Source: Candidatus Fermentibacterota bacterium (GTDB taxonomy: Bacteria; JAFGKV01). Taken from it: a stretch of 10,614 bases of DNA. The stretch's first letter is position 1. The number at the start of each line of letters is the position of its first letter. The DNA is taken from NCBI GenBank assembly GCA_030620115.1, contig JAUXFG010000135.1, positions 1-10,614 of the forward strand. Reading direction: 5' to 3'. The notes under the pieces are model-generated. The model did not search any database, had not been told where the DNA came from, and saw nothing but the letters and a program-made list of their open reading frames with translations. Positions 3,057 through 8,717 of the stretch are shown here, piece after piece. A program made the translations under genes and the position numbers.

Positions 3057-3238
3057 TCATGTACCCCTTTGTATATACAGATGAGGCCTGGTGCAAAGAT
3101 CCGTCTTCCAGGAATCCCGGATCGCTCAATGCAGTGCGGGGACGCGGAAAATAGACTGATACCCATGCCGCGTCAAAGGGTTCGATGAAGAACAAGCTTG
3201 CGGTTCGGGCGTCTCGCCAATCCCGCGTCGGTCGCGGG

Positions 3239-3356
3239 ACGGCTTTGCGCAACTTCTCAATAAGTCCGTGCGATATTGGAGAAATCACCCTCAATCCCCC
3301 GTTGCAAAAGGGAGAAGGTTCGATGCACGAACCTATTGAGAGGTTACGGCTTCGCG
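3239..3356. repeat. Imperfect inverted-repeat element flanked by short direct repeats (MITE-like)
   Basis: A 21-nt arm at 3251-3271 pairs with an inverted arm at 3325-3345, matching at 18 of 21 positions (core TCTCAATA...CGTGC). The arms enclose about 53 nt with no coding potential. Outside the arms is a near-identical direct repeat: ACGGCTTTGCG at 3239-3249 and ACGGCTTCGCG at 3346-3356, 10 of 11 matching. The right copy abuts its arm and the left copy is 1 nt from its arm. Terminal inverted repeats with flanking direct repeats are the layout of a small non-autonomous mobile element. Immediately left is a further perfect 7-bp hairpin (TCCCGCG at 3221-3227, CGCGGGA at 3233-3239). No transposase is present. 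The structural description is direct; the mobile-element reading is inference from one copy. Confidence 0.45.
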
Positions 3357-3396
3357 ACGAAAGCCGGTGAGAAATCCGGGTTAATGGGAGCGAAAA

Positions 3397-3468
3397 CTTA
3401 ACACAACTATAACATTCCTATAATCGCGAGATAACATCTATCAACTATATTATTTGTAGTCGAGTGCA
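3397..3468 (+). promoter_or_regulatory. Distal promoter-like module P1 with five 11-bp-spaced boxes
   Basis: Five heptamers start at 3397, 3408, 3419, 3430 and 3441, exactly 11 bp apart: CTTAACA, TATAACA, TATAATC, GATAACA and TCAACTA. A TATATT (3446-3451) serves as candidate -10. GTCGAGTGCA (3459-3468) begins at about the expected transcription start. The module has the same architecture as the one at 3866-3938. Direct repeats at 11-bp pitch are the known form of Pho boxes for OmpR/PhoB-family regulators, and CTTAACA resembles the TTAACA (PhoP) and CTTAACCT (SphR) half-sites. The regulator assignment is inference. Confidence 0.55.
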
Positions 3469-3865
3469 TGGGGTTCTCCCCCCTAGTGGAGAAACAAGAG
3501 TCGAGACCGGTGGCGCTTTTCCAGCGCGTAGTTGAGAAATGAGCCGTGGTCGTTGGCTCGAGTGAGAAGGCAGTATCCGATACTCTACTGAAAGGAGGGC
3601 TCAATCGGTTCAACCCATTGAATCAGCTCTCAGATCAGAAAGAGAGTTGCAACATCCAGGCGCAACGCTTCTGGTTGTGCAACCGGCGGGGCCGCACCCC
3701 GAGGTTCGTTCCACCGTACCTCATCGTTGATCGTCTCCCTAACTTCAACCTCGCGGTCCCGCCGGTTTTCTCTATACAATCGCGGTGAACGGTGGCTCGC
3801 AAAACATCCGCGCCATCAACGACAGCATTCCCTCACATGCCTACCGCACACAAAAGCCTGCAATT
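3469..3865 (+). other. Non-coding stretch between the two promoter modules: hairpins and an orphan ribosome binding site
   Basis: I see no convincing gene here. Four potential stem-loops occur in order on the plus strand: TTCTCC/GGAGAA (3474-3479 with 3488-3493), GCGCT/AGCGC (3513-3517 with 3523-3527), an imperfect long hairpin at 3646-3683 (outer GTTGCA/TGCAAC, inner CCAG/CTGG and GCG/CGC), and CGGGG/CCCCG (3687-3691 with 3697-3701). A perfect Shine-Dalgarno AAGGAGG lies at 3592-3598, but no ATG, GTG or TTG follows at a workable distance; the expected position reads ATC. Possible readings are a long structured leader of the fimbrial operon transcribed from the distal promoter, a small RNA, or a decayed duplicate of the 5' end of the subunit gene. 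None can be decided from one sequence. Confidence 0.4.
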
Positions 3866-3938
3866 CTTAACACAACTTTAATGCTCTCATAATTCTCACT
3901 TAGTATTTATATTGTATATTAATGTCAGGTCGAGTGCA
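3866..3938 (+). promoter_or_regulatory. Proximal promoter-like module P2 of the fimbrial operon
   Basis: Heptamers start at 3866, 3877, 3888, 3899 and 3910, exactly 11 bp apart: CTTAACA, TTTAATG, CATAATT, CTTAGTA and TATTGTA. TATATT at 3915-3920 is the candidate -10, at offset +49 from the first box, the same as in the distal module. GTCGAGTGCA at 3929-3938 matches the distal copy in all 10 positions. There is no good -35 hexamer at the proper spacing, which suits an activator-dependent promoter in which the boxes replace it. The predicted transcript would start near 3927 and carry a leader of about 65 nt ending at the strong ribosome binding site of the first subunit gene. A PhoB/PhoP/SphR-type regulator is inferred from the repeat spacing and sequence only. 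Confidence 0.6.
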
Positions 3939-3950
3939 AGAGAAGACCAA

Positions 3951-3973
3951 ATGCCCGATTCAGATGCCCGATT
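3951..3973 (+). repeat. Short tandem duplication in the operon leader
   Basis: ATGCCCGATT occurs at 3951-3960 and again at 3964-3973, a 13-nt period with CAG between the copies. It lies between the predicted transcription start and the AAGGAGG (3978-3984) of the first subunit gene, so a change in copy number would alter the leader length by 13 nt. Both copies contain an ATG; neither opens a useful reading frame that I can see. Confidence 0.55.
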
Positions 3974-3993
3974 TTAGAAGGAGGACTTGAACA

Positions 3994-4620
3994 ATGAAAC
4001 GGTTAGTGCCCGTGCTGCTTGCAGGCATTGCGCTGCTGGGGTTGAACGCGACCCCGGTTCTCGCCCAGGCCTCGGGAACGGTTGATATCGATATCAGCTT
4101 TCCCCCTCTCATCATTCTGTATTACTACTCAGACATCACCGTCACGATCCCGTCAGCCGCTCTTCTTAATCTGATGACTGGCGGCGATGATGACATCGAG
4201 ACTACCGGAGGTACGGTCGACGTAAGTGCCAGCGGTGGGATACTGGAGGGTACACTGGCGGGGCCGGGTACCGATCTCGATGTAAATCCTGCTGATGTGA
4301 ACTTGCATCTCAACACTATCTGGGCCGTTCGCTCGGTGGGTGCTGCCTCTGGGAACAATACCCAAGTGGTGGTATCAGCACCGGAGAATGCTACGCTCAC
4401 AGGAAGCAATGGCGGAACGATCGTGGTGGATGATACCGACATTCGCAAAAATGGCGGGACTTTTGATGGTAATCGGCAAGACGACTTCCCGCCCACAGGC
4501 CTTGGCTCGTACCAGTTGGGTGATGTTTTGCTCGAGCTGGATATCAGCAGTGCTTCGACTGAGGGTACGTATAGCAATGCAACTGGCGGTCAGTTCACCA
4601 TAACCGCCTCCAGCCTATAG
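3994..4620 (+). CDS. Secreted fimbrial subunit, putative major pilin (208 aa)
   Basis: This is probably the main structural subunit of the fimbria made by this operon. A clear signal peptide covers residues 1-24 (basic KR, hydrophobic core, cleavage after PVLA). The mature protein of about 184 residues has no cysteine and is rich in Gly, Thr, Ser and Asp with alternating hydrophobic residues, as expected of a beta-sandwich pilin. The N-terminal strand region (about 28-53, with FPPLIILYYYSD) could act as the donor strand. The C-terminus carries LELD (180-183), GTYS (191-194) and a final FTITASSL strand. The same LELD/GTYS pair at the same spacing occurs in the next gene, supporting a shared fold; the GTYS ending also resembles DUF4402-type pilins. 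It has the strongest ribosome binding site of the first three genes (AAGGAGG, 9 nt before ATG), fitting high expression. I do not recognise the exact family; the role rests on context and fold features. Confidence 0.75.
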   Translation: MKRLVPVLLAGIALLGLNATPVLAQASGTVDIDISFPPLIILYYYSDITVTIPSAALLNLMTGGDDDIETTGGTVDVSASGGILEGTLAGPGTDLDVNPADVNLHLNTIWAVRSVGAASGNNTQVVVSAPENATLTGSNGGTIVVDDTDIRKNGGTFDGNRQDDFPPTGLGSYQLGDVLLELDISSASTEGTYSNATGGQFTITASSL

Positions 4621-4628
4621 GCAGAACA

Positions 4629-5210
4629 ATGTGGAGTGCGCACAGAGCACTCCTGAGTCCCTTGGCACGCGGATGCTTCACATCCCATGTGCTTGGGCTC
4701 TGGGTGATGGCAACATTGGGGTCTGCGGTGCTCGCAGGCCCCAATGCCGTCTTCTGGAGCCCATCTTCCAAGGGCGGGATGATACGCTTCTCTATCCAAC
4801 CCCATGTGATCCTTCACCCTATCGCCTCATCTGAGCTCTTGAGAGGTAGTGAGTCGCAGCCAATGAGGTATCGCGGAGGCCCCATTGAGGCGCCGCAGAT
4901 CAATACCATAGTAACCCGTCATGTCCCCTCTCTCTGGCGTGTGACCATGCCCCGCGGAACCAATGTGGACGATCTGGAGATCACCTATGACGTGCTATCG
5001 GAAAAGGGCCGTGATGGGTGTCTCAGCCTGAGGGGGAAAGGGGATTTCGAGTGCCCTGTTCGTATTCTCCCAACCCGTCCCGTGACTGTGGAACGGCAAG
5101 ATCAGGTGGATCTGCTCGAGGGGGGAGCCATACTGGAGCTCGATCTCACCACCGTTCGCTACGCCGGTACCTACTCCGGCACGTTGCTCATTTCCATACA
5201 TCAGCTATAG
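4629..5210 (+). CDS. Secreted fimbrial subunit, putative minor or tip subunit (193 aa)
   Basis: This is a second exported pilin-like protein. The likely signal peptide is long, with a basic N-region up to about residue 20, a hydrophobic core VLGLWVMATLGSAVLA (21-36), and cleavage near 36. The C-terminus AGTYSGTLLISIHQL, with LELD (169-172) and GTYS (180-183), matches the first subunit in motif and spacing, so the two are probably homologous beta-sandwich domains. Unlike the first subunit it has two cysteines in the mature part, C131 and C142, that could form a disulfide. At about 157 mature residues it is one domain only, too short for a classical two-domain tip adhesin. The gene starts 8 nt after the previous stop with only a weak AGG as ribosome binding site. 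A 7-bp hairpin covers the start, suggesting lower expression. The ATG at 4629 is the best start; an internal ATG at codon 27 would destroy the signal peptide. Whether it caps, initiates or anchors the fibre is unknown. Confidence 0.65.
   Translation: MWSAHRALLSPLARGCFTSHVLGLWVMATLGSAVLAGPNAVFWSPSSKGGMIRFSIQPHVILHPIASSELLRGSESQPMRYRGGPIEAPQINTIVTRHVPSLWRVTMPRGTNVDDLEITYDVLSEKGRDGCLSLRGKGDFECPVRILPTRPVTVERQDQVDLLEGGAILELDLTTVRYAGTYSGTLLISIHQL
4633..4653 (+). promoter_or_regulatory. Hairpin at the translation start of the minor subunit gene
   Basis: GGAGTGC (4633-4639) and GCACTCC (4647-4653) form a perfect 7-bp stem around a 7-nt loop, beginning 1 nt after the ATG of the gene at 4629 and 12 nt after the stop of the major subunit gene. 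In the mRNA it would hinder initiation on the second gene and could shield the 3' end of a processed major-subunit message. Both effects would skew output toward the first subunit. The stem is seen directly; the function is inferred. Confidence 0.4.
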
Positions 5211-5219
5211 ATTACGTGC

Positions 5220-6080
5220 ATGAAAACGTCTATTCCTGCCTGGATACTCTTTTCGATTCTTGGGATGGTGGTTGCGATCCACGCGCAGATCGGAGTCAGC
5301 CCACCGAAATTTGAGCTCCCCATAGGAAAGGTTCCCACCACCGAATCATTGCGTGTCTTCAACTATGGAGACCGAAAAGTCGAAGTCTCTGTCACGGTAC
5401 ATAACTGGGATCTCGACGAGAAGAACGAGGTGAGGATTCTTCCTCCCACAGAACAGTCATTGGACCAATGGATGGTGATCAACCCATTACGGTTCAGCAT
5501 CGAGCCAAGCCGGTCCCAGACCATCCGTTTCTCCATCCGACCTCGAGTCGAGCCCCAGCCCGGGGAGCATCGGGCTATTATCTATCTGGAGGAGCAAAGA
5601 CCACCTGACGAAAACAAAACCGCGTTTCAGGTTCTTTTTCGATTGGGCATTGCTGTCTACGGTCATGTGGGTGAAGTGACGAGAACCGGCATGCTTCACC
5701 ATGTAGCCATTGAGGATGGATTGGTGTGGTTCGATATCAGCAGCCAGGGAACCGCGAATGCTCGTTTCGACGGGCAGTACGCGGTGTGGTCGCGCGATCT
5801 CTATCCCGGCTATTCCATGACCGAGATGATTGCTGATGAAGGGAATCCCGACGCGGTTCCTCCTGGCATGCTCGAGGTGGGCTCACTTCCCACCACGCCC
5901 ATATTGCCAGGTACCCGAAGGAGAATCTCTATGGGCCTTCCAGAGGATCTCCCTGATGGCTCCTATATGCTGGACCTGAATACGGCTCTGGGTACCGCGG
6001 TCATTGACACGGGAATCCCTTTCTCCATCGCTGTGTCGGAGGAGGACAGATCGGACCTTCGTGAAGAGAAGCCGGAGTAA
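5220..6080 (+). CDS. Periplasmic fimbrial chaperone, PapD-like fold (286 aa)
   Basis: The protein would bind fimbrial subunits in the periplasm by donor-strand complementation and deliver them to the usher encoded next. A signal peptide covers about residues 1-22 (cleavage after AHA). The first immunoglobulin-like domain (about 23-150) shows IGVSPPKFEL (24-33), the PLRFSIEPSRSQTIRF segment (89-104), PGEHRAIIYLEE (114-125) and the alternating-hydrophobic FQVLFRLGIAVYG (136-148). That last segment corresponds to the G1 donor strand and ends more like archaic CsuC-type chaperones than PapD/FimC. The second domain runs from about 155 to 272. At 286 aa it is somewhat longer than the usual 230-250, with a charged tail after residue 272 (SEEDRSDLREEKPE). 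The gene begins 9 nt after the minor subunit stop and has no recognisable Shine-Dalgarno, so translation is probably coupled. The family call is firm; the subclass is tentative. Confidence 0.85.
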   Translation: MKTSIPAWILFSILGMVVAIHAQIGVSPPKFELPIGKVPTTESLRVFNYGDRKVEVSVTVHNWDLDEKNEVRILPPTEQSLDQWMVINPLRFSIEPSRSQTIRFSIRPRVEPQPGEHRAIIYLEEQRPPDENKTAFQVLFRLGIAVYGHVGEVTRTGMLHHVAIEDGLVWFDISSQGTANARFDGQYAVWSRDLYPGYSMTEMIADEGNPDAVPPGMLEVGSLPTTPILPGTRRRISMGLPEDLPDGSYMLDLNTALGTAVIDTGIPFSIAVSEEDRSDLREEKPE

Positions 6081-6119
6081 TGGCCCACGTGCGGCCCGTT
6101 CTTATGAGGAGGAATAGAC

Positions 6120-8717
6120 ATGCGAGTCCTGGCAGCGTTCTTCCTCCTTTGCTTTTGGGCGCCTCCGCCTTTTGCGGCCCAGGTGTCCAACCAGGTTACT
6201 GATAGAGTCACCGCCCCTCTTTTCGAGATTCCACATGCTGATTCCACTGCCATAGAACCGCTTCTGGTGGGGGTTATCATTGGCCGGCAAGAGGTTGGCG
6301 CCTTGGAGGTACTCAGGGAAGGCGATCGTTTCCTGATTCCATTGGAGGCATTTTCGGAGATTGCCGGCATCACCATCACTCTGGTTGGGGAGCTGACGCG
6401 GCTTTCGACCCCATTGGGAGCCGTGGACCTTGGTCCTGCCGACCTCAGGATCATCCATGGAGAGACATTTCTGACGCAGAGCGCCATAGAGCAAAGGCTC
6501 GGAACCTATATCAGCTTCGATCGTGAGGAGTATGCGCTGCGTTTCGACATGCCGTGGCGTCCTGCACAGGGTGAGCGCCTTGTGCTCACCGATATGATCA
6601 CACCCGAAGCGACACCTCCAGCGATGAGTATCTCAACAATCCGCGAAGATCTCGCCTTGAGCCGGCGGGGTGATTCCCACAGTAGCCGCAGCGCAACAAT
6701 GCTGGCGGGACGATTGGCGGGCGGTACATGGCGCGTTCGGTATCAGGACGATTTTTCCGGCAGCAGGAATCTTCGACAGTATGCATGGCGGATCACACGT
6801 GGCAGGGGTCTTTTCCTGCTTGGACAACAGGATCTTCACCTCCATCCTTTGCTTGGAAGCTTCGAGCTCACAGGCCTGCAGGCAGCCTGGACCAACCAGC
6901 CTCTTGAACTCTTCCCTCCTATTGCGGAGTCGCGGGAACTTCTGCCACGACGAGTGCGCCCCATTGCTACCTTTCGGGGTCAGGGGCCTCCCGGTGGAAT
7001 GGCGGAGTTACGGATCGAGGGGAAAGTAGTCGACGTCCAGACAATCCCCCTCAATGGGGCATATGAGTTCCTGGAGGTCCAGCTGCCGGGGCGTTTGCTT
7101 GGGCAGATTGAGGTTCTGGTGTACGATCGTCGCAACCTCTCGATTCCAGTGGCCATTCACCAGCAGAGACCGAGTGTTTCAGAATTCCTCCTCTCGAAGG
7201 GTGCATTGATCCAGCTTGGCGGTTTCGGATATGATGGAAACCTGGGGCAAGACTTAATGGACGAGGAGAGAACAGGGGAGGTGGCTGGATTCTATCAGGC
7301 ACGGTACGGGATCTGGGATGGGGTGACCGTCGAAGCTGCGATCCAGGAATCCAATGACATGCCACAATACATGGGAGGCTTGGTGGTCGGTCTGGGCACG
7401 GGATCGGTCCTGTCACTAGGTGCGGCAGGATCCAGAGGGAAAGAGGCCCGTGGTGCAGACCTCGAAGTGCATCGAGGCCACTGGCATGTTCTTGGAAGTG
7501 CATCAACCCATGCCAGTGGTTTCTCCGCGCCAGAATCCGAGGAGCATTCCCAGTATTTCGCCGAACTCACCTATGTGCCCGGTACCCGCATGAACCTGTC
7601 ACTGATCGGTCGACGCAGGTTGGGGGGAATCGAGAAGATATCCTATGTTCTTCCAGCGATATCGTGCTGGCCAACCTCAAGACTCTCGGTGCGTGTCCGG
7701 CCGGATTATGCGGGCGATTACCAATTCGATCTCTATTACCGGCCACACCGGAGGATTCGTATCACCGTGCACCAGCAGGATGTGACGGCGCTTGATATTT
7801 CGCAGACCTTGCGGCGTTCGTACCGGGTGTCACTCGGTACGGAGTTCAAAGAGGGAATGTCCACCCGATACTCAGGCCTGCTCAGTTATGCCGGTCGAGG
7901 TGTGGATTCCTTCTGCTGGAGCCTTGGGGCGTCAACCGATGGCAAGAAGCACGAGGCTCTCGGCTCGGCGGAAGTCCGGATTGGGTTGGGTTTTCTGGCG
8001 AGAGTGGGCGTCGAACAGGATCTCTCTTCTCATGCGGAAGGATGGCGGAGTTGGGATTCACGGGTGGTCACGTTTGGTCTTACCATGGACATGGCGGTGG
8101 TAGGGGGCCGCTTGCTCCCGGCTCGGGCACATGCAATCCGAGCGGAACGTGGGGGAATAGCCGGTCAGATCAAGGTTATTGAGGATGAGGCGCCTACACG
8201 GCACGGCTTCAAGAACCTGTATATATTCTTGAACGGACAGCCTGCGGCTCGGACTCACGCAGGCGGCGCCTTCTTCGTCGGAGATCTTGAGGCCGGCGTA
8301 TATCTCGTGGAGCTCGACACTGAGAATCTCCCTCTGGAGCTGTCGCCCGTGCGTGGATCAATCGTGGCTGAAGTCGCTGCTGGCGCGGTGACTGGGGTCA
8401 GCTTTCTGGTTCGGCCTGAGTATGGATTGGCGGGGAGGGTGGCTGACTTGAATAGCACGACAGTGCCAGGCGTTCGCGTGGAGCTTTTGGACAAGACCGG
8501 CCATGTGCTCCGGACAGTGATCACCGATCGCTTTGGTTTGTTTCGTATAGATGGCATCCTCGTTGGTGTTTACCAACTGCGTGTCTCTCCCGAAAGTTTC
8601 CCTGATGTTTCGTTCATTTTGCCCACCAGGACCGTGGTGATCCGTGACGATTTCCTTTTTGATCAGAACCTCAAGCTTCCTCTCGTCTTGGAGACCGAAT
8701 CACCGCAATCTGACTGA
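6120..8717 (+). CDS. Outer-membrane fimbrial usher with two C-terminal transthyretin-like domains (865 aa)
   Basis: The usher forms the outer-membrane pore through which chaperone-bound subunits are assembled and exported. A signal peptide occupies about residues 1-20. An N-terminal periplasmic domain (about 45-145) has GDRFLIPLEAFSEIAGI (68-84) and ISFDREEYALRFD (131-143), resembling archaic ushers. The plug-like segment follows at about 280-345 (ATFRGQGP, AELRIEGKVVD, GAYEFLEVQLPG, IEVLVYDRR). From roughly 190 to 665 the sequence has the alternating pattern of an aromatic-rich beta-barrel, interrupted by the plug. The C-terminus differs from the PapC/FimD type. Residues about 678-766 and 767-855 look like two tandem beta-sandwich repeats of the CarboxypepD_reg/transthyretin kind (GGAFFVGDLEAGVYLVEL; TDRFGLFRIDGILVGVYQL). 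AGGAGG lies 7 nt before the ATG, the best ribosome binding site after that of the major subunit. A 39-nt gap separates it from the chaperone gene. No fimbrial gene follows. Confidence 0.82.
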   Translation: MRVLAAFFLLCFWAPPPFAAQVSNQVTDRVTAPLFEIPHADSTAIEPLLVGVIIGRQEVGALEVLREGDRFLIPLEAFSEIAGITITLVGELTRLSTPLGAVDLGPADLRIIHGETFLTQSAIEQRLGTYISFDREEYALRFDMPWRPAQGERLVLTDMITPEATPPAMSISTIREDLALSRRGDSHSSRSATMLAGRLAGGTWRVRYQDDFSGSRNLRQYAWRITRGRGLFLLGQQDLHLHPLLGSFELTGLQAAWTNQPLELFPPIAESRELLPRRVRPIATFRGQGPPGGMAELRIEGKVVDVQTIPLNGAYEFLEVQLPGRLLGQIEVLVYDRRNLSIPVAIHQQRPSVSEFLLSKGALIQLGGFGYDGNLGQDLMDEERTGEVAGFYQARYGIWDGVTVEAAIQESNDMPQYMGGLVVGLGTGSVLSLGAAGSRGKEARGADLEVHRGHWHVLGSASTHASGFSAPESEEHSQYFAELTYVPGTRMNLSLIGRRRLGGIEKISYVLPAISCWPTSRLSVRVRPDYAGDYQFDLYYRPHRRIRITVHQQDVTALDISQTLRRSYRVSLGTEFKEGMSTRYSGLLSYAGRGVDSFCWSLGASTDGKKHEALGSAEVRIGLGFLARVGVEQDLSSHAEGWRSWDSRVVTFGLTMDMAVVGGRLLPARAHAIRAERGGIAGQIKVIEDEAPTRHGFKNLYIFLNGQPAARTHAGGAFFVGDLEAGVYLVELDTENLPLELSPVRGSIVAEVAAGAVTGVSFLVRPEYGLAGRVADLNSTTVPGVRVELLDKTGHVLRTVITDRFGLFRIDGILVGVYQLRVSPESFPDVSFILPTRTVVIRDDFLFDQNLKLPLVLETESPQSD

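Follow-up and report, generated by a model that had tools for sequence, protein, structure and literature searches.

Two arrays upstream of a four-gene operon

The window, i.e. the whole 10,614-nucleotide stretch of Candidatus Fermentibacterota DNA that was analysed, possesses an intergenic stretch (3057-3993) between a divergent tldD-like gene and a four-gene operon (3994-8717). Within this stretch are two promoter-like elements, at 3397-3468 and 3866-3938, both on the + strand. Array 1 (3397..3440) consists of four 11-bp boxes, CTTAACACAAC TATAACATTCC TATAATCGCGA GATAACATCTA, equalling two 22-bp Pho-box equivalents. It is followed by the -10 hexamer TATATT of promoter 1 (3446..3451), in phase with the boxes, a phase common to pho promoters, and by a first copy of GTCGAGTGCA (3459..3468) at the predicted transcription start. 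Array 2 (3866..3909) comprises CTTAACACAAC TTTAATGCTCT CATAATTCTCA CTTAGTATTTA, with the -10 hexamer TATATT of promoter 2 at 3915..3920 and the second copy of GTCGAGTGCA, found by string check, at the predicted start (3929..3938). Including the -10, the arrays span 3397-3451 and 3866-3920. The box core T-A-A-Y occupies letters 3-6 of the 11-bp units, with a single degenerate unit, box 4 of array 2 (CTTAGTA), and letter 4 is A throughout both arrays. A -35 consensus is lacking at the usual distance in promoter 1, and promoter 2 has a weak TTCTCA alone. An additional TATATT at 3908, seen in the string check, overlaps array 2.

A sequence-only reading of the window had placed the units at 3397, 3408, 3419, 3430 and 3441 and at 3866, 3877, 3888, 3899 and 3910, and a string check reproduced all of these starts. 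The same holds for the common 11-base opening CTTAACACAAC (within the window at 3397 and 3866 only), for TATATT at offset +49 in both arrays (starts 3446 and 3915) and for GTCGAGTGCA at offsets 62 and 63 (within the window at 3459 and 3929 only). Its count of five heptamers per array had to be reduced to four boxes: the fifth units (TCAACTATATT and TATTGTATATT) misfit the box and form the -10 region, each ending in TATATT as its last six bases, with GTCGAGTGCA 7-8 bases further on.

The best scores for four boxes plus -10 are 19/19 and 18/19 for the window arrays, and the maximum among shuffles is 16 (2000 dinucleotide-preserving shuffles per local AT-rich stretch, 500 of the whole intergenic region). 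With up to two mismatches, the strict four-box pattern has six overlapping matches in the 4.1-Mb genome, at two loci only, the window and contig C258; the reversed pattern has none in the same genome. The arrays have a GC content of merely 24-29%, as chance AT-rich repeats would, but the observed score was unreached by any shuffle and the reversed-pattern control was zero, and these controls rule out a chance origin. Arrays 1 and 2 are identical at 36/55 positions, and the 100-bp stretches that precede them at 20/100, so they probably represent an old promoter duplication, which would have been kept only where functional.

Further upstream, positions 3251-3345 of the window are occupied by an interspersed repeat of ~95 bp, with about 81% identical copies before pstS (L024 6589-6495) and on contig C198 (L026 4211-4116).

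The downstream operon and the region between the promoters

The operon is preceded by a ribosome-binding site (GGAGGA, 3980..3985, + strand) and encodes, all on the + strand and in this order, a secreted pilin-like protein of 208 aa (3994..4620, no significant family match), a small protein of 193 aa (4629..5210, no family match), a PapD-like chaperone candidate (5220..6080) and an 865-aa usher-like protein with a C-terminal CarboxypepD_reg domain (6120..8717). The 'fimbrial' label of the earlier reading is plausible and weakly backed by family models, as the PapD_N match of the chaperone candidate (E 0.024) is below cut-off and the usher-like protein has no Pfam usher match. Distant homologues of the chaperone candidate in two other genomes (G021, G029) lie beside other predicted secreted genes, and none was found in the two family relatives G001 and G002. 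No usher relatives were found in the genome contigs searched, and a comparison of the usher-like protein with PDB sequences gave no informative match. Single-sequence structure models of the chaperone (pLDDT 40) and the pilin (pLDDT 34) were too poor to use. The genes 3994-8717 are thus described here as a probable chaperone-usher-like surface operon.

The region between the promoters (3459..3865, + strand) contains no convincing ORF, folds better than shuffles (z -3.8) and, like related loci, has no match among Rfam RNAs. It is possibly a long 5' leader or a small RNA of promoter 1, which may be structured.

Arrays at the pho locus and elsewhere in the genome

The genome (4.1 Mb, a MAG in 296 contigs, 98% complete) was scanned by pattern and by profile. 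It contains one PstS-type match, on contig C148, in the order phoB-phoR-porin(PF16930)-pstS-pstC-pstA-pstB-phoU, with pstC, pstA and pstB named by sequence and order. Located 5' of the porin gene are GCTCACAATCT TCTAACAATCT GCTCATCTTCC TCTAACGATCT CCTTGTATCAT, i.e. four boxes and a -10 at offset +49 as in the window. An 11-bp array of the kind that the sequence-only reading had proposed to look for at pst/pho genes is present at this locus. The boxes of this pho promoter are a mixture of TCAY and TAAY, and those of the window arrays are all TAAY-type, a difference that counts against a common regulator.

When widened to four TMAY cores, spaced at 11 bp and followed by a -10, the pattern fits the C148 pho site and array 1 without mismatches, and array 2 with one. 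Allowing one or two mismatches, it also finds C258, C81 and two TTCAC-type arrays, one on C182, downstream of creBC, the other on C193; the reversed control yielded one match in the genome scan. The C258 locus (L014 7460-7540) is a six-box TAAY array with a weak -10, TACATG. Its neighbours are a divergent prepilin-like gene 110 bp off, named from its N-terminus only and lacking a Pfam match, and, 1.2 kb downstream, an HD-domain gene. The 1.2 kb that follow the array contain no gene on its strand. The TAAY array of C81 is located 5' of a gene for a GEVED-domain secreted protein, orthologue of the GEVED gene of G001. A profile search of three genomes recovered just the eight source arrays, which points to a small set, although for this genome it scored 150 of the 213 first-look candidates and a weak member may have escaped.

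Conservation of the pho promoter and matrix scores

The TMAY pattern matches the orthologous porin promoter in both family relatives as well as the orthologous GEVED promoter of G001, and G002 possesses a weaker array between a regulator gene and its GEVED gene. Loci retrieved by the porin scan bear the annotations Eisenbacteria, Fermentibacteria, Krumholzibacteria, Zixibacteria and Planctomycetes, among others. Of the related porin loci in other genomes, 71 had enough upstream sequence; 38 of these carry an upstream array of at least 17 of 19, versus two of 71 in reversed sequence.

A matrix was built from the 38 porin promoters of the other genomes, two of them from G001 and G002; these training arrays were chosen by their TMAY core, which makes the matrix test partly circular at the four letters of the core. 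The own pho promoter scores 39.1, C258 38.2, array 2 37.3, array 1 29.0 and C81 25.6. Outside arrays the score remains at or below about 6 over 156,314 positions, and the shuffle maximum is 3.7. The two CreB-type arrays also reach 28.9 and 23.8, array 1 not being separated from the one at 28.9. The matrix thus identifies operators of this class, and letter 4 tells the two types apart.

Candidate regulators

Of OmpR-type response regulators, the genome yielded PhoB and CreB only; matches to PF00486 are these two and one SARP/BTAD-type protein, and no LytTR regulators were found. The C148 regulator has PhoB as its best NCBIfam model, below cut-off (251.9 vs 296.2), and the kinase beside it is above the PnpS cut-off; both adjoin pstS and phoU. 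CreB and CreC are above their NCBIfam cut-offs. The recognition helix of PhoB (DVQIVGLRKKLG) contains Gln here, and His takes its place in G001 and G002. Over a set of 17 pho loci, helices with Gln go together with A and those with His with C at letter 4 (22/8 vs 12/23, Fisher p about 0.003-0.005 for loci that are phylogenetically related), a pairing that is suggestive; the observation covers L024 8122-8180 and loci L064-L139.

The CreBC system, together with two promoters whose 11-bp arrays are of the TTCAC type and have a common -10 phase, is found at L025 2860-4985 and 7035-7104, and L045 1638-1696. TTCAC repeats constitute the cre tag of CreB.

Weighing the regulators

Judged by their sequence, the window arrays are OmpR/PhoB-class operators. 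They have geometry and box content in common with conserved pho-operon promoters, which makes PhoB the best-supported regulator and suggests, at a probability of about 0.74, that they are operators of the genome's PhoB (Pho boxes) which place the surface operon in the Pho regulon via tandem promoters. Further support for the Pho link proposed in the sequence-only reading is provided by the array at the pho locus, its retention in G001 and G002, and the like arrays that precede related porins elsewhere.

Binding by CreB, in response to a carbon or redox signal, would draw on a system that is encoded here and whose likely arrays agree with those of the window in pitch and -10 phase. However, letter 4 is C in 8/8 CreB-type boxes and A in 17/18 TAAY-type boxes (Fisher 9e-7), and the window arrays have A in place of the C of TTCAC repeats, so CreB is disfavoured and very improbable as their regulator. 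A SARP/BTAD-type regulator, i.e. the protein of C198 or C281, might instead bind the TAAY arrays as tandem heptamers adjacent to the -10, without any link to phosphate. BTAD proteins are encoded in the genome, and SARPs such as AfsR and PimR bind heptameric repeats at 11-bp spacing which end beside the -10, the last repeat 8 bp from it (PMC10936776; PMC5930380). In contrast to the window arrays, those repeats have another heptamer and have been characterised in actinobacteria. Such a regulator is unlikely, as pattern and profile scans found no array on the C198 and C281 contigs, near the SARP-like genes of this genome, and the box content agrees with pho-operon promoters of many genomes.

G001 and G002 each encode an additional OmpR-type regulator directly 5' of the gene for a GEVED-domain secreted protein (L048 439-1262; L052 1057-1929). 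A separate regulator of this type, unassembled here, could control a surface-protein regulon of the window, C81 and C258. G001 and G002 have such a gene, with an array between regulator and GEVED gene, the C81 promoter, whose downstream gene is orthologous to the GEVED gene of G001, has a TAAY array, and a MAG in 296 contigs could lack the regulator. The regulator was not found in this 98% complete genome, however, and those of G001 and G002 have a His-type helix and arrays that are mostly not TAAY, so this explanation, too, has a low probability.

Comparison with known systems

The Pho box of E. coli consists of tandem CTGTCAT separated by 4 bp (PMC2648988, PMC3511308). The window arrays resemble it in the heptamer with 4-bp linker at 11-bp pitch, in the overlap with the -35 position, here replaced by the array with a -10 in fixed phase, and in the presence of the same operator at the own pst operon of a genome that encodes PhoB-PhoR. 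They differ in their core, TAAY rather than TCAT, in their four boxes and in the two tandem promoters. In Synechocystis, PhoB binds to three TTAA repeats in tandem, and a mutation in any single repeat weakens or abolishes binding; type IV pilus genes are among the putative targets of this PhoB (PMC11126600). These cyanobacterial PhoB/SphR boxes share with the window arrays the tandem repeats and the TTAA core, there bound by a PhoB protein (PMC11126600), but belong to another phylum and comprise three repeats, versus four boxes here. Arrays of the cre tag agree with those of the window in pitch and -10 phase, CreBC being encoded here, and differ in letter 4, which is C in the cre tag and A in the window.

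Putative Pho boxes at fimbrial genes are already known from Enterobacteria, where ydeT and ydeQ of the F9 fimbriae possess them and a pst mutant shows lower fimbrial expression (PMC2648988). The likeness lies in putative Pho boxes at known or probable fimbrial genes; unlike F9, activation is predicted here from the operator position, and phylum and pilus type are different. Unusual in the present case are the tandem arrangement of duplicated promoters, a regulon of very few members and the pattern between helix and box.

Proposed function

If PhoB is the regulator, phosphate limitation would place phosphorylated PhoB dimers on the four head-to-tail 11-bp boxes, i.e. two 22-bp Pho boxes. Bound PhoB would stand in for the -35 element and bring sigma-70 RNA polymerase to the -10 hexamer TATATT lying in phase with the boxes, and transcription would begin at about 3459 and 3929. 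Two tandem promoters would thereby bring the secreted-protein/chaperone/usher-like operon into the Pho regulon, and the upstream promoter would add a leader of about 400 nt. As both promoters share their rows of 11-bp repeats with the phosphate-uptake operon of the genome, the surface structure is probably switched on at phosphate shortage.

A more extended proposal is somewhat less probable than its opposite: PhoB, with its Gln-type helix and a preference for TAAY, may run a very small regulon made up of the pst operon, the pilus-like operon with tandem Pho promoters, the GEVED surface protein and the prepilin-like locus, with the helix residue and letter 4 having co-evolved. The Gln/His versus A/C pattern may offer a simple handle on how the specificity of PhoB changes, and the box matrix, drawn from pho promoters across many genomes, could be used for Pho regulons in lineages without genetics. 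For this uncultured bacterial family, the arrays would delineate a concrete Pho regulon, in which surface appendages would be the main non-transport targets.
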